Shown here: in pieces, positions 3,947 through 13,119 of the stretch
How the letters are laid out: the number at the start of each line of letters is the position of its first letter
Numbering within the stretch: position 1 is the first letter of the stretch
Assembly: GCA_005798285.1 (NCBI GenBank)
Contig: SYKE01000059.1
Coordinates: 1-52,398, forward strand
DNA length: 52,398 nucleotides
From: Actinomycetota bacterium
GTDB lineage: Bacteria > Armatimonadota > SYMT01
Direction: 5' to 3'
The notes under the pieces: model-generated
Databases searched by the model: none
What the model saw: the letters and a program-made list of their open reading frames with translations, nothing else
Told to the model about the DNA's origin: nothing
Translations under genes and position numbers: made by a program

Positions 3947-4825
3947 TCATGCTTTGAGGGCGCCGGAGGTGAGTCCGGCGATGAAAGAGCGCATGGTGAG
4001 CAGGAAGAGCAGCAGCAGCGGGATGGACGCCAGTACGTAACCGGCCATCAAGGGTCCGTAGGTGGTCTGGTAGGCGCCGCGGAAGAAGGCGAGGCCGATG
4101 CTGAGGGTCTTCTTCGACTCCTCCGACAGCACAATGAGCGGCCACACATAGTCGTTCCAGGTGGAGAGCGTGGTCATCACGGCGACGGTGGCGAGGATGG
4201 GGCGGGAGAGCGGCACGGCGATGGCGCCGAAGAGCCGCCACTCCGAGGCGCCGTCGAGACGGGCGGCCTCGAACAGCTCTTCGGGCAGGGCGGCGATGAA
4301 GCTCCGCAGGATGAAGATGGCGAACACCTGACCGCCGGCGACGTAAGGCAGAACCAGGGCCCAGTGGGTGTTGAGCAGACCCGTTCCGCCGCTGCCCCAC
4401 AGGTCGTTTCCGCCGGTCAGCGGGAACTGCTTCATCCACATAAACGCCGAGACCAGGGTGAGAACGCCCGGCACCATCATCAGCGCGAGGATGGCGTAGA
4501 ACAGCGTTTCTCGACCCGGGAAGCGGTGTCGGGCGAAGGCGTAGGCGCTGAGCGACGCGACGAACAACGTGCCGATGACCGTGCTCACCGTCACTACCAC
4601 ACTGTTGATCGCGTACGGCGAGATGGCTTCCCACGCCTGCCGGTAGTTGTCCCACTGAGGTGGAGATGGGAAACCCCAGAAGTCGTGAAAGAACTGGGTG
4701 TTGTCCTTGAACGAGGTGAGGATCAGGAAGTAGAAGGGGTAGAAGGTCAGCAGCAGGAGCAGCCCTAATCCGAGGTGGATCGGGAGGTCTCGCATCGCGG
4801 GAGATCGGCTGGCCGAGCGACTCAT
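3947..4825 (-). CDS. ABC sugar importer permease, MalG type
   Basis: This 292-residue inner-membrane protein has six hydrophobic spans. It carries the EAA loop of binding-protein-dependent permeases (FEAARLDGASEWRLF, about residues 187-201), through which it contacts the ATPase. The N-terminus (FYPFYFLILTSFKDN) and the end (LLLLFLLTMRSFIAGLTSGALK) are typical of the MalG/carbohydrate CUT1 group. Its start overlaps the stop of the fused binding-protein/permease gene by 4 bases, so the two are translationally coupled. No ATPase gene is in the window. A shared MsmX/UgpC-like ATPase elsewhere probably energises it, which is common for CUT1 importers. Confidence 0.93.
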   Translation of the reverse strand: MSRSASRSPAMRDLPIHLGLGLLLLLTFYPFYFLILTSFKDNTQFFHDFWGFPSPPQWDNYRQAWEAISPYAINSVVVTVSTVIGTLFVASLSAYAFARHRFPGRETLFYAILALMMVPGVLTLVSAFMWMKQFPLTGGNDLWGSGGTGLLNTHWALVLPYVAGGQVFAIFILRSFIAALPEELFEAARLDGASEWRLFGAIAVPLSRPILATVAVMTTLSTWNDYVWPLIVLSEESKKTLSIGLAFFRGAYQTTYGPLMAGYVLASIPLLLLFLLTMRSFIAGLTSGALKA

Positions 4826-7275
4826 GGCTGATGCTCCGAGCTGGATTTCAGGTACTTCATGTTGAGGTAGGTGATGCCGAGGATCACCAGGAAGAGCGCC
4901 ACCCCGATGGAGCAGGCGTAGCCCATCCGATCGAAGGAGATGGCGTTCTGGTAAAGCTGCATGCCGGGGACCGTGGTCGAAAAGCCGGGTCCGCCGTTGG
5001 TGAGTAGAAGCTGAGTCTGAAACCCCTGCAGTCCGCCGATGAAGCTGAGCACGATCAGCAGCTTGATCTGTCCGAGCAGCAAGGGCAGATCGATGGAGCG
5101 GAACCGGCGGAGCCCGGAGGCGCCGTCGAGTCGGGCCGACTCGAACACATCACCGGAGATGCTCTGCAATCCGGCGTAGTAAATGAGCAGCGCGAAACCG
5201 CCGACCCACGGGAAACCCATGAACATCAGCGAGTAGAGCGCGATCCGGGGGTCTCCCAGCCACGACTGGCGCCACCCACCCGCGCCGACGGCCTCCAGAA
5301 GCTGATTGAGCAGACCGACATTGTCGTCGTAAAGAAACCCCCAGATGAGCAGGATGACCACTCCCGGCACGACCATCGGCACCACGAAGAGCACCCGATA
5401 GAGGTACTGAGCCCGCTCCTTGCGGAGGGCGAAGATCATCTCCGCCGCGATGAGCGGGGCCGTCAGGGTGATCAGGATCTGAGCTCCGAGCAACCGAACG
5501 GTGTTCCAGACGCTGTCTCTCAGGATGTCGTCCGCGAACATCGTCCGAAAGTTCAGCAGGCCGACCCACCGGGTGTCGCCGTTGCCCTTCCACTCGGTAA
5601 AGGCGTGGCCGAGCGCCGAGAGGATGGGGTAGTAGCTGAACAGCCCCAGCAGGATGAAGCTGGGCAGGATGAACAGGTAGCTGATGCGGGCCCGCCGGAT
5701 GGCCGGGCGGCGGAGCGCCACGCCGATCCCCGCAGCAACCGCGAGTCCGGCGCCGGCGAGGAGCGCCCCGGTGGGCGTCTGTCCACCGGGACCGGCGGGA
5801 GTGGGGCTGCTGGGCGGGGGCTGGATCTCCCAGTTGGCGTCAAAACGCCACACATCCGCGTTGTCCTTGAGGGTGATCTCCACGCTTTCTGCGAGGTATC
5901 GATCCAGACGGGCGAGACACTGCTCCTCGGTGTACTCGCCTCCGAGGTAGCCCTGCAGCACGCGGAACAGTCGCTCGTTGTAGAGGGGGCCGGCATCCTC
6001 GCCATTGAATCGAGTGGCGCCCTTTCGCAGCACCTCCATGAACAGGTTCAGGCTGGGCGCCCCGGCGAGGCCCACCACGTTGGGAACAAACAGCTCGGCC
6101 TCTTGAACGAGCGGCTGCAGGTTCTGCGGAGCCGTGATGAAGCGCAGGAAGTCGATGCAGAGCTCCACCTTGTTCGACCGCATGGCCGTGTTGGTGATGC
6201 AGTACTGGATCGACGTCGCGCCGCCGACCCCGCGCGCGCCGACGCTCGAGGCATAGGGGCTCGTCTCGCGAGTGATGGGCGGCACGAGAAAGGAACCGTA
6301 CTCGAACGACCGCAGCTTGTCCTGCCGAATGACCGGCGTGTACCAGCTCCCGTCCCACCACATCGCGACCTTGCCCATTCGAAAGAGGCGGTCGTCGAGG
6401 GCGGCGAGGTGTCCCGGCTGCCAGTAGGCCGACCACTCCTTCAGGATGCGGAGCAGTTCCGAGTAGCGCGGATCGTGGATGGAGAAGATGCCCTTTTTGT
6501 AGGCGCGGACGAACTCCTGCTGGTCCACCCCGGGGAAGCCGTACTCGGTCTGGCGGACGTCCATCTCCGGGACCCGATCGGCCCAGAGCTGGTCGTTCAG
6601 GATCCGGCGCGCCCAGGTGTACCGCATCTCCTGGGAGCCGGTCATCAGGAACGGCAGCACGCCCGCCGCCTTCAGCTTGCGGTGGATCTCCATCCACTCC
6701 GCCCAGCTCTTCGGCGGAACGGCGCCCACGCGTTGGAAGAGCTCCTTGTTGTAAAAGACGCAGGTTTCGACCTGGTCGATGGGCAGGGAGTAGAGGTGAC
6801 CGTCGGGCGCCCGCTTGGCGTTGGTGGCCTCCGGGTAGAACTGATCTCGCCAGCGCTTGTTGCCCTGAGAGCCGGGTGGGCAGTAGGGGTTCGGCTGTTC
6901 GAGGAACGGGTCGAGGTTGACGAACCAGCCGTAGCGGGCATCCTCGTTCGTGAAGGTGGAGTGCGACCACATCACGTCGGGAGCCATGCCCCCCTGAAGC
7001 TGAGTCCGCATCCAGGTGCGAAAGTCGCCCACCGGGCTCTTCGTGAACTCGATCTTCACGCCCGGGTGGAGCCGCTCGAACTCTCGGGCGAGGCGCGTGA
7101 ACTCCTTCAGCGGGCGGGGATTGTCTCCGGTGGTGATCTCCGGAGTGTAGGCCTGCGCAAAGAAGCGCAGCACCGTGTCGGCTGAGGCGGCGCGCGGCCC
7201 CACGCAGCAGGCGATCACGAGCGCCAGGCAGAGCGCGAAACCGGGAGAGAACCGAGCGAACACCACGGCGTGCAC
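4822..7275 (-). CDS. Fused extracellular sugar-binding protein and MalF-type permease
   Basis: This 817-residue protein joins two importer parts. Residues of about 1-32 are a signal peptide (ALVIACCVGPRAASA). About 33-485 are a family 1 solute-binding protein (EFERLHPGVKIEFTKSPVGD, MAPDVMWSHSTF, AMWWDGSWYTP). A Pro/Gly linker (about 487-507) and one extra membrane span lead into a MalF-like permease (about 525-817: YLFILPSFILLGLFSYYP and the EAA loop FESARLDGASGLRRF). The binding protein is thus tethered at the outer face of the inner membrane. The start chosen is GTG at 7275; a later start would still leave a signal peptide. The MalG partner follows with a 4-base overlap. Confidence 0.9.
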   Translation of the reverse strand: MHAVVFARFSPGFALCLALVIACCVGPRAASADTVLRFFAQAYTPEITTGDNPRPLKEFTRLAREFERLHPGVKIEFTKSPVGDFRTWMRTQLQGGMAPDVMWSHSTFTNEDARYGWFVNLDPFLEQPNPYCPPGSQGNKRWRDQFYPEATNAKRAPDGHLYSLPIDQVETCVFYNKELFQRVGAVPPKSWAEWMEIHRKLKAAGVLPFLMTGSQEMRYTWARRILNDQLWADRVPEMDVRQTEYGFPGVDQQEFVRAYKKGIFSIHDPRYSELLRILKEWSAYWQPGHLAALDDRLFRMGKVAMWWDGSWYTPVIRQDKLRSFEYGSFLVPPITRETSPYASSVGARGVGGATSIQYCITNTAMRSNKVELCIDFLRFITAPQNLQPLVQEAELFVPNVVGLAGAPSLNLFMEVLRKGATRFNGEDAGPLYNERLFRVLQGYLGGEYTEEQCLARLDRYLAESVEITLKDNADVWRFDANWEIQPPPSSPTPAGPGGQTPTGALLAGAGLAVAAGIGVALRRPAIRRARISYLFILPSFILLGLFSYYPILSALGHAFTEWKGNGDTRWVGLLNFRTMFADDILRDSVWNTVRLLGAQILITLTAPLIAAEMIFALRKERAQYLYRVLFVVPMVVPGVVILLIWGFLYDDNVGLLNQLLEAVGAGGWRQSWLGDPRIALYSLMFMGFPWVGGFALLIYYAGLQSISGDVFESARLDGASGLRRFRSIDLPLLLGQIKLLIVLSFIGGLQGFQTQLLLTNGGPGFSTTVPGMQLYQNAISFDRMGYACSIGVALFLVILGITYLNMKYLKSSSEHQP

Positions 7276-7895: not shown

Positions 7896-7985
7896 GGCCG
7901 AAGATTCGGGCGCCTGGAGTTGCCCCCTCCGCCTCGCCCCGCGGCATCCGGAAGGAGCAACTTGCGCCACGGGAGGATTTCGAAA

Positions 7986-9380
7986 ATGAACGATATGCAA
8001 TCGCAGAAGGAGACCCTGGTCGCACGTCTGACGTCTCTAAGGTCGCAGCTTGCGGAACTGCGGAGCCAGATCCGAGGTTTTGCGCATTTGCCGGAAGGCG
8101 GCGGCGACGCCGAGGGTGCGCTGGACTGTGCGCAGCAGTCTCTAGAGTCCCAGCAACCGGATCTCGTCTGCGCACGATCCAAACTGGCGAAGGCCCGCGA
8201 CACTCTGGATAAAGCGGATCAAGCCCTCACTCTGCGGAATGCCTATTGGGAGTGGGCGCTGGCCGTTTGGGGAGGGGTCACCCTTCTCTTGAGCTTCTGC
8301 TGGATGGTCAAACTCTGGAGTCAAACCGGTGGCGCCGGCGACGGTGTGGCTACCTACACCATCATTGAGGGCGCGAGGCTGTGGGACTTCACACTAGGCG
8401 GGTTTACCGTCCAATTGGATGCAGCTCAATGGCACGTGCTGCGTCCCGTACTGCTCGCGGCAGCCGGGGGGCTGGCTGGGGCCGGCCTTGCGATCGGTCG
8501 GTTGCTGTACCTCTCCATACCTTCTCGCACTTTGAACCCTAAGAGCATTCTCTGGTATCTCTCATCTCCGATCTATGCGGCAGGTCTGGCGAGCGCCATG
8601 TTTGCAGTCATCCGTGCCGGCCTCCTTGGCGCGGTGGGCCAGCTGCATTCCCAGAGTTCCGGAAGCACCCTGAGCGCTATCGCCCTCGGGTTGTTGGTGG
8701 GATTCGAGCCGACGGCTGTTTTCGAACGCATCAAGGCGGTTGTGCGAGCATTCTTCGGCACCGACGAGGTAAAGGCTCCACGACTGTCGTCGCCCCAGGT
8801 TTCTCTACAGGCAGGAACCTTGACGATCCGGTCGGCCGTGACCGCAAGTCCCGCCACCCGTATCGTCTCGGTGAGCGCCATGCTGCAAACAGATGGTTTC
8901 AAGACAAGTGTCTCGCTGGATCGGGGCGCCGATCACATCTGGTCGGTGAGCTGCCCGGTTCCACAGGCCCTCTTGAAAGCCCCGCACTTTACGGCGACGA
9001 TCGAAGCGCGGGACGAAGCCGGCAATCTCAGCCGCTCAGAGGCGATCAGTGTTTCCATGTCTGCTCCGTCTACTCCTGTTCAGAGTGTTCTCCAGCCTGT
9101 GGTGGTCGTTTCCAGCGCGCCGGCTGAGGGCGGTACACTCGGGGCGGCAGACCCGGTGGTGCTGAACTTCTCCTCGGCGCTGCGGGACCTTGAAGTGACT
9201 TTGACCGCTGCGGATGGGTCGGAGATCGAGTTGGCGAAGGCCTGGGATGATGCCCAGACATCGCTCACCCTATCGCACGCTGCACTGCCGGAGGGCGACT
9301 ATCGCTTGCTCATGGTGAATGCGGTGCTCCCGGATGGGGCCGACTTCGAGTTGGGCCGGGAGTTGCGGTTCAAGGTGTAG
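7986..9380 (+). CDS. Membrane protein with N-terminal coiled coil and C-terminal Ig-like region, unknown function
   Basis: I chose ATG 7986 because a gggagga ribosome-binding site lies 8 bases before it; an open frame extends further upstream but without one. The product has 464 residues. Residues 4-75 look like coiled coil (LVARLTSLRSQLAELRSQI). Four hydrophobic spans lie at about 85-255 (WALAVWGGVTLLLSFCW, VLLAAAGGLAGAGLAIGR, IYAAGLASAMFAVIRAGLL, ALGLLVGFEPTAVF). About 270-464 are two or more beta-rich segments ending in an Ig-like pattern. I do not recognise the family. A receptor- or scaffold-like envelope role is possible. Confidence 0.65.
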   Translation: MNDMQSQKETLVARLTSLRSQLAELRSQIRGFAHLPEGGGDAEGALDCAQQSLESQQPDLVCARSKLAKARDTLDKADQALTLRNAYWEWALAVWGGVTLLLSFCWMVKLWSQTGGAGDGVATYTIIEGARLWDFTLGGFTVQLDAAQWHVLRPVLLAAAGGLAGAGLAIGRLLYLSIPSRTLNPKSILWYLSSPIYAAGLASAMFAVIRAGLLGAVGQLHSQSSGSTLSAIALGLLVGFEPTAVFERIKAVVRAFFGTDEVKAPRLSSPQVSLQAGTLTIRSAVTASPATRIVSVSAMLQTDGFKTSVSLDRGADHIWSVSCPVPQALLKAPHFTATIEARDEAGNLSRSEAISVSMSAPSTPVQSVLQPVVVVSSAPAEGGTLGAADPVVLNFSSALRDLEVTLTAADGSEIELAKAWDDAQTSLTLSHAALPEGDYRLLMVNAVLPDGADFELGRELRFKV

Positions 9381-9444: not shown

Positions 9445-10005
9445 TCACGCGCGGCGACGGTGAGCTGGTTCCAGCACCAGGGTGAGTCGGGGTCTGGGCG
9501 TTCCAAGCGGGTCGCCCCGAAGCAGGCTGCGTTGCAGATTCACCACGGGAAACCGGTAAACGACGAGTCTCGGTAGAACTCCAAGCCCGCCTGCTGCCTC
9601 GATCAGTCGGGAGCCTTCGTAGCGAGCCAGCTCCGAAATCCAGGGTGGGACCTCTCCGTCGGGCAAGGCGGCCAGTGCGCGACTCAGACCCCGCGCATCC
9701 TCGGCCGGCTTGTCGAGGCCGCCGGGAGGGTGTTGCTCCAGGTAGGTCCGGGCGAGCGGACCGAACCGGTCGCCGAGCGCCCGCTCGGTGGCCGGGAGCA
9801 ACCCCCGGATCTCCACCAGGCGCTTGTGGATCAGCGAGTGCGCGAACGCTCGGATCTCCACCTCACACCGGCCGATGGCCGCGATCCGGGCGGCCGGGAG
9901 GTTCGCCTCCTGCCCCACGGTTGCCGGGTCGGCGAAGAACCGATCCCGGTAGGAACCATCGACGAAGAGTCTCGCCAGGAGCGCTTGTTCGCGGGCTAGT
10001 CCCAC
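9445..10005 (-). CDS. Putative DUF692 partner protein (HvfC/MbnC-like role)
   Basis: The 186-residue product starts at GTG 10005, ten bases inside the end of the DUF692 gene and preceded by aaaggcgg. The longer open frame upstream is only the shadow of the DUF692 gene. The protein is soluble and mainly helical at the start (FVDGSYRDRFFADPATV, IRAFAHSLIHKRLVEIRGLL). The C-terminal part carries ISELARYEGSRLIEA and RLVVYRFPVVNLQ. Partner proteins that follow DUF692 enzymes (DUF2063/HvfC, MbnC, TglI) have a similar size, position and an E-x-x-R/Y-E helix. I infer a substrate-binding partner from position and pattern; sequence identity to any named family is unproven. Confidence 0.55.
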   Translation of the reverse strand: MGLAREQALLARLFVDGSYRDRFFADPATVGQEANLPAARIAAIGRCEVEIRAFAHSLIHKRLVEIRGLLPATERALGDRFGPLARTYLEQHPPGGLDKPAEDARGLSRALAALPDGEVPPWISELARYEGSRLIEAAGGLGVLPRLVVYRFPVVNLQRSLLRGDPLGTPRPRLTLVLEPAHRRRA

Positions 10006-10910
10006 CGACCCGCCTTTCGACCGATCTCCCGGGCGCGCTCCAACTCCGGTCGGAGCTCGGCAAGGGCCGGGATGTTTCGATCCCGTTCGAGGACCATGCC
10101 GCGGAGCGGACAACGCGCGGCGACCTCGGCGAGCAGTTCCCACACCGGCTCCGGAGTCTCGGAACCGTGATCGTCTACCCACGTGTCGCCGCGCCGTGCC
10201 CAGCCGACGTAGTGGGTCTGCACCACTCGCTCCAGCGGAAGCTGGTCCAGATACTCCGAGGGATCGAAGCTGAGGTTGGCCGCGTTCACGAGGAGGTTGG
10301 TCACGTCCAACAACAGCCCGCAGCCGGTGCGCTCCGTCAGTTCGGTGAGGAACTGAGGCTCGGTGAGTTCATCGCCGGGGAGGCGAAACGGGGTGGTGAT
10401 GTTCTCCAGGATCAGCGGCGCCGGAATGCGGCGTTGCGCCGCGTGAATGTTGGCGCACAGAAAATCCAGCGCTTCTCGCGTGAGTGGCAGTGCGGCGAGG
10501 TGACCGATGGCGACCCCATCCGCACGCGTGTACGCAATGTGCTCGCTCCACCAGGGAGGATCTATTGCTTCGACGACTCGGGCCAGACGGTCCAGATAGG
10601 CCGGATCGAGTCCCTCCGCGCTACCCAGAGAGAGATCCAGCCCGTGCGGGATCAGGGGGAAGTGCGCCTGGAGCAGCGCCAGCTCGGACTGCACCGCCGG
10701 GTCGGCGCTCATGAAGTGATCCGCCACGATTTCGAGAAAGTCGATCCCCCGACGATCCAGAAACAACTCGCCCCGATGCACTCTACGGTAACCCAACCCC
10801 GAACCCAGAGCGGGAAGTTCCGTGCTCTGCCCGAGTGCCCCCCTCTCAGCCTTCCCCAACGCAGTCCCCTCCGTCCGATGCACAGCTGCCGAAGTGTCCT
10901 CCCGCGTCAC
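9996..10910 (-). CDS. DUF692 family iron-dependent peptide-modifying enzyme
   Basis: This 304-residue TIM-barrel protein shows the DUF692 (UPF0276) hallmarks in order: LGSGLGYR, FLEIVADHFM, PLIPHGLDLSLGS, WWSEHIAYT, LILENITTPFRLPG, GLLLDVTNLLVNAANL, VVQTHYVGW, DDHG and VLERD. The His, Glu, Asp and Asn residues in these motifs are the usual metal ligands. Characterised members (MbnB, TglH, ChrH) use a multi-iron centre to oxidise cysteines in ribosomal peptides. I chose GTG 10910, which overlaps the previous stop by 4 bases (GTGA) exactly as the gene pair upstream does. GTG 10883, behind gggagga, is an alternative. The substrate is probably the Cys/Gly tail encoded at 11803. Confidence 0.88.
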   Translation of the reverse strand: MTREDTSAAVHRTEGTALGKAERGALGQSTELPALGSGLGYRRVHRGELFLDRRGIDFLEIVADHFMSADPAVQSELALLQAHFPLIPHGLDLSLGSAEGLDPAYLDRLARVVEAIDPPWWSEHIAYTRADGVAIGHLAALPLTREALDFLCANIHAAQRRIPAPLILENITTPFRLPGDELTEPQFLTELTERTGCGLLLDVTNLLVNAANLSFDPSEYLDQLPLERVVQTHYVGWARRGDTWVDDHGSETPEPVWELLAEVAARCPLRGMVLERDRNIPALAELRPELERAREIGRKAGRWD

Positions 10911-11806
10911 TTGTCGATCTCGAAGGGGTTCGCAAAAGGATCTCCCCACCCGGCGGCATCAAACCCGTGGAGAGTTTGCGGCAACAAGAATCGCTGGGCG
11001 AGCCACAGCATCGGCGGCAGTGAAAACCTGTTGAAGAATTGCGTCCAGTCGCTCCATGGAGTTCCGCTCAGAGCGCGGATGCCGGCTGCCGCCACCAGCA
11101 TGTCCGGGGTCGTCGTACCTGTCGTGATCGCCTCCCTTCGTTGACGCAGGAAGGCTCTGCCTTCACGGGTCCACGGGCCACGATCCCAATGAACCGTTGA
11201 AGCGAGGGACAGCAATGACACCAGGACGAGCGGCGCATAGAGAGATACACCGACTCCTCCGCCGTGAGGATGACTCCACCTCCACAACGTTCCTGCTGCT
11301 GCAAGTAGCAGAGCTGCCGCAATGCCTGCTCCCCATCGGCACTGCCCCGGCAAAGGTGAGCCCGCCATGTAGCCACGCTGAATGAGTCTCTCCTCGTAGT
11401 TGCGACAGAGGTCCTTCATTCGATCCAGAAGTCGCAGGTCGGAGAGCATCCATCGTGACAGGGGACGAAAGGCGGCCGCCAGAATCACTCGCTCCAGAAG
11501 TTGCTCCGGGAGGTCTTCATCCGAGGTCGAGGAGCGGCGCATCTGGACGTGACGTCGACGAACTCCTCGTGGCGATTCTTGCAGGAGTCGGCGCCCCAGA
11601 AGCGATACGACGGCGGTTTGGACCACTCCGTTCACGCCGTCCCGCAGGAAGGCAATCTCATAGACGTCTGGAGTTTCGGTAAGCACCGAATGTCCGCTGG
11701 CGCGCGGAGCCTTTTGCATGATCCAGAAGCGCAGGACTGCGTGGACTGCGACAGCAGCGACGAAGTACAGAGCCGCTGCCCCCGACGGCAAGAGCGAACC
11801 GTTCAC
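10907..11806 (-). CDS. TIGR04222-like membrane protein without Cys/Gly tail
   Basis: This 299-residue protein is a divergent paralogue of the next gene. It has an N-terminal span (ALYFVAAVAVHAVLRFWIM), then PDVYEIAFLRDGVNGVVQTA, matching the TIGR04222 hallmark 'DPYEvAyLaGG---V--A' but with DG in place of GG. Two further spans follow (AGIAAALLLAAAGTLW and VSLYAPLVLVSLLSLAS). It lacks the fourth span and ends FANPFEIDK with no cysteine tail. The start GTG overlaps the stop of the tailed paralogue by 4 bases, and its stop overlaps the DUF692 start by 4. It may scaffold the tailed protein. Confidence 0.75.
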   Translation of the reverse strand: MNGSLLPSGAAALYFVAAVAVHAVLRFWIMQKAPRASGHSVLTETPDVYEIAFLRDGVNGVVQTAVVSLLGRRLLQESPRGVRRRHVQMRRSSTSDEDLPEQLLERVILAAAFRPLSRWMLSDLRLLDRMKDLCRNYEERLIQRGYMAGSPLPGQCRWGAGIAAALLLAAAGTLWRWSHPHGGGVGVSLYAPLVLVSLLSLASTVHWDRGPWTREGRAFLRQRREAITTGTTTPDMLVAAAGIRALSGTPWSDWTQFFNRFSLPPMLWLAQRFLLPQTLHGFDAAGWGDPFANPFEIDK

Positions 11807-12807
11807 CCTCCGCAGCCCCCGCCTCCACAGCCTCCGCCGCCGCAGCCTCCGCCTCCGCCGCCACAGCTTGAGCCGCAGCCGATCGCCGCGCCGCAGCCTG
11901 CCGATCCGCCGTCCGCCTTCGTGGCGGCGCGCTGGAAGAAGCTGGGATAGGCCGCGAAGGAGGTCTGCGAGAGAATCCCTACACCGAAGGTTGCGACGAC
12001 CAGCGGCAGCAGCCCGCCCCAGGCGGCGCTCCGATCGGTGGAGAGAAGCTGCTCTCGCATCGGCGTGAAGGCGGTTCGTGCACTGGAAAGGAAGCGTTGG
12101 CCCGCCTGCGTCAGGCGCCGTCGCGACACCCGTACCGTGACCGGCAGCAACGCGGTTGAGATCAGCCAGAAGAGGATCAACAGGCCGATGTTCTTTCGTC
12201 CGTAGTGCGAGGCCTCCAGCAGCCGGTAGGCCGTGAGGGTGAAGAGAAACCCGGCGCCCGCCAGCCCGGCGAGAATGCGAGGGAAGTCCGGGGGAGCTAC
12301 ACAGAGCAGTCCCCGGTGGGTGAGATCCCGCTCATAGGTCTGGCACTGTGAGTGAATTCCGGCTCTCACCGCTCCATCGAAGAGCTCCCGGGCCGAAGCG
12401 CTGGCCCGAAGTGTCGTGAGTACGGAGCGCTCCACCGGGTGACGGATGTCGGCATCGGCGACCCGATCAGCCGGCATCAACACGGTGTCCTTGCCGCCGG
12501 GCTTTTCAGTGTCCAGCGTCAGATCGCCTCGCTCCACCAGCGCCGCGACCGCGGTTCGGAGCACATGCTCCTCGCCGCCGTGGAGGTACGCGATCTCGTA
12601 GGGATCCGGCTGCAAGGGGAGCGATTCGTCGGCCGCCGGGTCTGCTGGAAGCGCGCGGAGCACCGCAAAGCGTACGCCCAAGTGCGTCGCCACTGCGGCA
12701 ATCAGATAGAGCACAAGGAATTGCGGACCGCTGAGGTCCGCGAGGGGGTTTTGAAATAACCAATCCACCAGGGTTCTTCCTGTCTGGACATCCGAAGTGC
12801 CGGACAT
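11803..12807 (-). CDS. TIGR04222-like membrane protein with a Cys/Gly-only C-terminal tail (candidate DUF692 substrate)
   Basis: This 334-residue protein starts with a span (FLVLYLIAAVATHLGVRF). It then has the TIGR04222 hallmark DPYEIAYLHGGEEHVLRTA, a soluble helical region, and three more spans ending GGLLPLVVATFGVGIL. After SFFQRAATKADGGSA, the last 31 residues are almost pure Gly and Cys, with six cysteines in the pattern GCG, GCG, SCG, G6C, G4C, G4C, GG-stop. I chose ATG 12807 by alignment with the paralogue; the open frame extends 85 codons further without homologous sequence. As I recall, TIGR04222 was defined on such tails and is often found beside DUF692 genes. The tail would lie on one membrane face for modification. 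Confidence 0.8.
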   Translation of the reverse strand: MSGTSDVQTGRTLVDWLFQNPLADLSGPQFLVLYLIAAVATHLGVRFAVLRALPADPAADESLPLQPDPYEIAYLHGGEEHVLRTAVAALVERGDLTLDTEKPGGKDTVLMPADRVADADIRHPVERSVLTTLRASASARELFDGAVRAGIHSQCQTYERDLTHRGLLCVAPPDFPRILAGLAGAGFLFTLTAYRLLEASHYGRKNIGLLILFWLISTALLPVTVRVSRRRLTQAGQRFLSSARTAFTPMREQLLSTDRSAAWGGLLPLVVATFGVGILSQTSFAAYPSFFQRAATKADGGSAGCGAAIGCGSSCGGGGGGCGGGGCGGGGCGG

Positions 12808-13119
12808 CCTCTCGTCACCGGCGCCGGGCGCCCTCCCACTCGGCGAGGCGAACTCCTCAGCGTCCCGGTACGACTCAAAACGGGATCCAGGCCTCCCGAG
12901 ATACGACCCCGAATCGCGTTCAGAAATCGTTAAGGAGATGGGGAACAGTCCACGGGATTCGCACCGGGATGAGCCGATCTGGGGAACGACATCCAGAAGA
13001 GCGAGCCATGTGGCGCGGGCGACCATTGTCGTTGCAGGAGTCTGGGCGGGCCGTTGATGCACCCCATCAGTCTGCTGCCGCGGTCAACGCTTTCAGCCCG
13101 GCAGAGGTGGAGGACGAAA
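12808..13119. other. Divergent control region between the DUF692 operon and the secreted-protein gene
   Basis: These 312 bases hold no convincing gene; the open frames are N-terminal extensions of the flanking genes. No clear -35/-10 pair or operator palindrome was recognised, although promoters for both directions should be here. A good ggagga ribosome-binding site ends the region before ATG 13120. Confidence 0.5.

Follow-up and report, generated by a model that had tools for sequence, protein, structure and literature searches.

The closest described counterparts of the locus analyzed here are subsets of TIGR04222 proteins for which modification has been proposed, with their tails acting as MNIO substrates (Antoine et al., 2025; PMC12452194). 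Captophorins and bufferins are MNIO-made thiooxazole copper-binding peptides, and the enzymes BufB and HvfB are both connected with thiooxazole copper-binding products (PMC13097082); for FonB, a small residue after Cys is preferred and Pro is not tolerated (PMC13097082). In plants, AtGRDP2 carries DUF1399 plus a cysteine-containing [CG]GGGCGG[GC] region (PMC4299439). Because the general idea of tail modification is already published (PMC12452194), the operon described here represents a further case of the proposed class.

The window (the whole 52,398-nucleotide stretch of DNA that was analyzed) contains four close-set minus-strand genes, running from position 12768 to 9445, which encode a tailed TIGR04222 membrane protein, a tail-less TIGR04222 protein, an MNIO (DUF692) and a small protein. 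The tailed gene heads an operon with an MNIO and its probable partner. One MNIO and two TIGR04222 genes are present in the genome (5.04 Mb, 326 contigs, 69% complete assembly), all within this operon. The arrangement resembles that of the putative MNIO substrates of Antoine et al. (PMC12452194) in having a TIGR04222 domain above cut-off, transmembrane segments, a C-terminal Gly/Ser/Cys tail, a downstream MNIO and no Sec signal peptide, whereas it differs in its extra tandem tail-less copy and in its tail, where Gly rather than Ser predominates and the terminal CGGCGG is missing. Around the operon, no genes for metal resistance were noticed, apart from one doubtful CopC-like match in the convergent neighbor (7920–9380, plus strand), which scores 25 bits against a cut-off of 23.3 over C-terminal residues 395–463 and contains hardly any His. 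This region more likely adopts an Ig-like fold than forms a copper site, and a copper link through it was rejected given the weakness of the match and the near-absence of His. Elsewhere in the window, a single ORF (4822–7275, minus strand) joins a solute-binding protein and an ABC permease domain.

The tailed gene (11803–12768, minus strand) encodes 321 amino acids from a GTG start and scores 91.8 bits against NCBIfam TIGR04222 (curated cut-off 43). The GTG at 12768 is probably the true start, being preceded by an AGGAAG ribosome-binding site and agreeing with the starts of cyanobacterial homologues; both observations disfavor the start at 13062 given by the longest ORF. Helices lie at approximately residues 15–38, 161–189 and 194–211, followed by the tail, and the protein has no signal peptide, Pfam match or EGKCG motif. 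Its AF2 model (pLDDT 67.6) retrieved nothing significant in a fold search, and a tblastn search of plasmids with the protein returned no matches. The second TIGR04222 gene (10907–11806, minus strand; 299 amino acids) also exceeds the family cut-off, at 68 bits, but only the first copy combines transmembrane segments with a low-complexity, Cys-containing C-terminus. The two copies share 25% identity and are weakly sister in the tree (support 80/83). Of the 14 MNIO loci sampled, only the window has such a tail-less paralogue, which may form a pair with the tailed copy.

The tail itself (11806–11898, minus strand), GCGAAIGCGSSCGGGGGGCGGGGCGGGGCGG, comprises 31 residues with 6 Cys and 20 Gly, has CG6C, CG4C and CG4C spacers, and past SSC consists of Gly and Cys only; every one of the six Cys is followed by Gly. 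Reading the minus-strand frame directly bore out the original prediction on these features, and also on the tail running to the stop and the stop lying inside the start of the next gene: the TGA (11805–11803) shares 4 bases with the GTG of the tail-less copy (11806). A proline-rich plus-strand ORF at 11501–11950 is the antisense shadow of the tailed gene. That the tail cannot fold conventionally, as had also been claimed, agrees with the AF2 model, in which the last 40 residues have a pLDDT of ~28–46 and are predicted to be unstructured. Given the amino-acid frequencies of the window, six or more Cys in 31 residues have a probability of ~1e-6 and 20 or more Gly ~1e-14, and homologues from many genomes have similar C-terminal ends; composition and conservation together rule out a chance repeat. 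Across the 5.04-Mb assembly, a DNA pattern for CGG..CGG gave three adjacent matches at the tail and only isolated ones elsewhere, a genome-wide count that represents one DNA pattern only.

The MNIO gene (9996–10859, minus strand) likely starts at a TTG after GGAGGGG, and its product matches PF05114 with 276.7 bits (cut-off 25). Positions equivalent to His55, His91, Glu135, Asp165, Asn168, His194, Asp209, His211 and Glu238 of VcMbnB, which coordinate iron there (PMC8888699), are kept in this enzyme and in all of the 14 MNIOs compared, as is an ERD motif with its Asp. By way of the sequence of PDB 3BWW, we infer that this Asp would correspond to the catalytic base Asp249 of FonB. ERD is followed by Glu in most MNIOs linked to TIGR04222, by Arg in the window and by Phe in FonB-like enzymes. 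The nearest NCBIfam models are MNIO_BufB and HvfB, although the window enzyme remains below both equivalog cut-offs (234.4 of 310 bits and 192.7 of 360 bits, respectively).

Directly behind it lies the fourth gene (9445–10005, minus strand; 186 amino acids), whose start shares 10 bases with the MNIO stop and a homologue of which follows the MNIO in all 14 loci; the same 10-base overlap occurs in five cyanobacterial loci (L033, L034, L081, L083 and L086). We regard the product as a probable type 2 MNIO partner. Like TglI and ApyI-like partners, it is encoded right after the MNIO, is of similar size and has an N-terminal helical domain resembling that of TglI (residues 1–58 superpose on TglI 1–61 with an rmsd of 2.7–3.0 Å over 57–58 residues); unlike them, it lies below family cut-offs in sequence, and its whole-fold match is not significant. 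In a Foldseek search with its AF2 model (pLDDT 62), TglI ranked first at E = 1.9 and MbnC twelfth, and no match was significant. Profile matches among the homologues were weak: one to HvfC (E 8e-4) and one to ApyI (E 0.006), both of which are MNIO partner proteins, and NHLP/Os1348-type N-terminal matches in most. None of 13 partner homologues had a Pfam match to DUF2063 (PME1). A PDB search with the single sequence found nothing, and one with the partner profile only LigA-like/SonA (E 0.13).

Within the phylum of the window, 22 of 291 genomes encode TIGR04222 proteins above cut-off, as do 13 of 292 cyanobacterial genomes (the phylum of Calothrix); a single-protein search of genome contigs had found only three cyanobacteria. 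The 14 MNIO loci are the window, six others of its phylum and seven cyanobacterial ones, a sample of draft genomes from two phyla that leaves out Actinomycetota, the main home of TIGR04222. In all 14, the order TIGR04222–MNIO–partner is kept on one strand, so that a partner accompanies every MNIO–TIGR04222 locus here, compared with at least 10% of clusters, and none apparent in many, in the published survey (PMC12452194). The original prediction would be contradicted by homologues with DUF692 neighbors but no Cys-rich tail; a tailed TIGR04222 protein is present in every MNIO locus, all TIGR04222 proteins of the 13 other loci are tailed, and the only tail-less protein next to an MNIO is the window's second copy. 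The expectation of conserved Cys number and spacing fails, as MNIO-linked tails have 4–12 Cys and spacers of 2 to 19 residues, which contradicts strict conservation of either. Conservation extends to the tail being there at all and, usually, to a CGGC near its end, found in 31 of 35 tails, whether MNIO-linked or not, though not in the window. In MNIO-linked tails, 100 of 103 Cys are followed by Gly, Ser or Ala. In one Calothrix locus (L034:7248-7840), two small genes resembling, by eye, a ParD/RelE-type toxin–antitoxin pair lie between the tailed TIGR04222 and MNIO genes. Directly ahead of the MNIO-linked TIGR04222 gene, four cyanobacteria (L033:5012-5812, L034:5077-5877, L082:7185-7982 and L086:5057-5857) have a conserved gene whose product resembles, by eye, a potassium channel ending in a zinc ribbon.

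Our preferred reading, to which we assign a probability of roughly 0.6, is that the MNIO and its partner oxidize the tail cysteines to metal-binding heterocycles, yielding a membrane-anchored chelator. The TIGR04222 protein would sit in the inner membrane and offer its flexible Gly/Cys C-terminus to the MNIO as substrate, taking the place of a small precursor peptide; the MNIO, working together with the partner protein, would oxidize the cysteines of Cys-Gly dyads, with 5-thiooxazole-type groups as the likeliest product, and the modified array would bind a soft metal near the membrane, with copper as the best guess. That the tail is the substrate is likely, because the gene order recurs in 14 loci of two phyla, always with a tail, and because the single MNIO of the genome shares its operon with both TIGR04222 genes. 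The chemistry and the metal are more tentative: a thiooxazole is suggested because small residues follow Cys, which fits the FonB preference, and because BufB and HvfB are the closest models. Like captophorins and bufferins, the window combines a related MNIO, Cys-Gly dyads and a cysteine-rich substrate gene upstream of MNIO and partner; unlike them, its putative substrate is a multipass membrane protein rather than a secreted peptide, its modification is only predicted, and DUF2282, EGKCG and PME1/DUF2063 are absent. Lacking a Sec signal peptide together with DUF2282 or EGKCG, the tailed protein does not qualify as a captophorin or bufferin precursor. The unreached BufB and HvfB cut-offs, the absence of a signal peptide, a DUF2063/PME1 partner and EGKCG, and the lack of neighboring metal-resistance genes other than the doubtful CopC-like match count against the preferred reading. 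Should the tail be modified, the action of MNIOs would extend beyond small peptides to full-size membrane proteins and produce an anchored chelator.

A further point against this reading comes from longer TIGR04222 proteins (mostly ~450–545 amino acids), which occur in genomes without any MNIO, many of them >90% complete. Most of these proteins have the same Gly/Cys tails with the same residues around Cys, so that the tail is independent of MNIO and has a function or partner besides it. Nor is the tail specific to DUF692 neighbors, being found equally in MNIO-free genomes. Of the earlier interpretation, the disorder, the DUF692 operon and the suitability for metal binding or enzymatic modification (now the best reading) are retained, and fixed Cys number and spacing and specificity for DUF692 find no support. 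The MNIO-free proteins also bear on an alternative in which the tail acts through unmodified thiols, as a flexible membrane-attached metal or redox buffer, and the MNIO modifies only some members or another substrate. The persistence of tails with conserved CGGC in near-complete MNIO-free genomes, and of Gly/Cys tails on GRDP-like proteins that lack TIGR04222, would be expected of such a buffer, but the MNIO and partner behind the tailed gene at all 14 loci are left unexplained, and we consider this alternative unlikely.

The side of the membrane on which the tail lies bears on another reading. From charge distribution, short TIGR04222 proteins start outside and have the loop after the third helix inside, and since the segment ahead of the tail shows only marginal hydrophobicity in most members (on a crude scale), the tail may be cytosolic and within reach of the MNIO. 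In a Rhizobium GRDP-like protein, the tail follows RRPRRDR behind a two-helix hairpin with Arg on both sides, an arrangement that suggests a cytosolic tail. Antoine et al. (PMC12452194) placed the tail in the periplasm, in which case a cytosolic MNIO would need to act ahead of membrane insertion. A periplasmic tail would suit a structural or adhesive Gly-rich segment that forms disulfide cross-links outside the membrane, comparable to the Gly-rich ends of DUF2207-type proteins, and three MNIO-free members do match DUF2207_C. Both the Rhizobium arrangement and the marginally hydrophobic segment speak against such a role, which gives no account of the MNIO linkage and which we judge improbable. 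A functionless, slippage-prone GC-rich repeat, as the short GGN/TGY units and the free variation of homologues in length and spacing might suggest, is largely refuted and very improbable, with Cys kept by nearly all intact homologues in two phyla and CGGC in most tails.

The longer TIGR04222 proteins have an extra N-terminal domain of 130 residues, in which WHxH, Cys and HisHis positions are invariant. This WHxH domain was found in 19 of the 21 MNIO-free loci with a tail (L079 being only partly visible) vs. none of the 14 MNIO loci (Fisher p = 5e-8, a value inflated by relatedness). A profile search of 13 of the 14 MNIO-linked genomes found none with the domain, and the window protein and genome likewise lack it. 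The WHxH domain is a distant relative of GRDP-like PF07173/DUF1399: several members show sub-threshold matches to PF07173, and linked Halomonas and Azospirillum relatives exceed the threshold; PF07173 itself was too insensitive as a genome-wide probe. One MNIO-linked protein (L039) nests within the long-form TIGR04222 clade (support 100/99), an indication that an independent switch has taken place at least once. Proteins without TIGR04222 carry the domain as well, combined with Gly/Cys tails in Rhizobium, Jeotgalibacillus and Paenibacillus and, in other cases, with shorter Cys-rich ends.

Like the plant GRDP-like/DUF1399 proteins (AtGRDP1/2; PF07173), the MNIO-free TIGR04222 relatives join this domain to a Gly/Cys tail; the window protein has no such domain, and the plant proteins additionally carry an RNP-1 motif. 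MNIO and the GRDP-like domain may stand in for each other as partners of one tail. More broadly, and doubtfully at present, the Gly/Cys tail could be one conserved module with interchangeable partners, either MNIO and its partner in trans or a GRDP-like/DUF1399 domain fused in cis, the plant GRDP stress proteins included. If so, the GRDP-like domain would be an unrecognized tail-modifying, tail-binding or metal-loading domain, giving a first functional handle on DUF1399, whose function the apparent either/or of MNIO operon and plant-like GRDP domain on the same tail makes testable. The MNIO-independence of the tail and the alternation of a GRDP-like domain with MNIO appear to be new here; a GRDP-like domain was not found in the main text of Antoine et al. 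(2025; PMC12452194).

Several further loci have neighbors or ends of their own. Two small proteins related to the WHxH domain (L107:2327-2923 and L108:2315-2905) end in CRGCSGCNSCSGQSC or CKGCNGCAAGC with a glycosyltransferase gene close behind and are possible cysteine-glycosylated peptides. Variovorax and Cupriavidus GRDP-like proteins (L110:2393-2968 and L116:2441-3055) have Cys-repeat ends (AAWCSLEAGK and EPAYCAREA units) that recall RiPP core repeats, and a WHxH-related protein on a Streptomyces plasmid (L115:255-2890) has CSQCHSGC near its end and a radical SAM gene nearby. In a TIGR04222 protein on a Gloeothece plasmid (L102:2998-4972), the tail is shrunk to GGCGCGC and an overlapping methyltransferase gene lies downstream. 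Finally, in four genomes of one genus (L041, L043, L044 and L048), a gene resembling by eye an NRAMP metal transporter lies less than ~5 kb from the long-form TIGR04222 gene.
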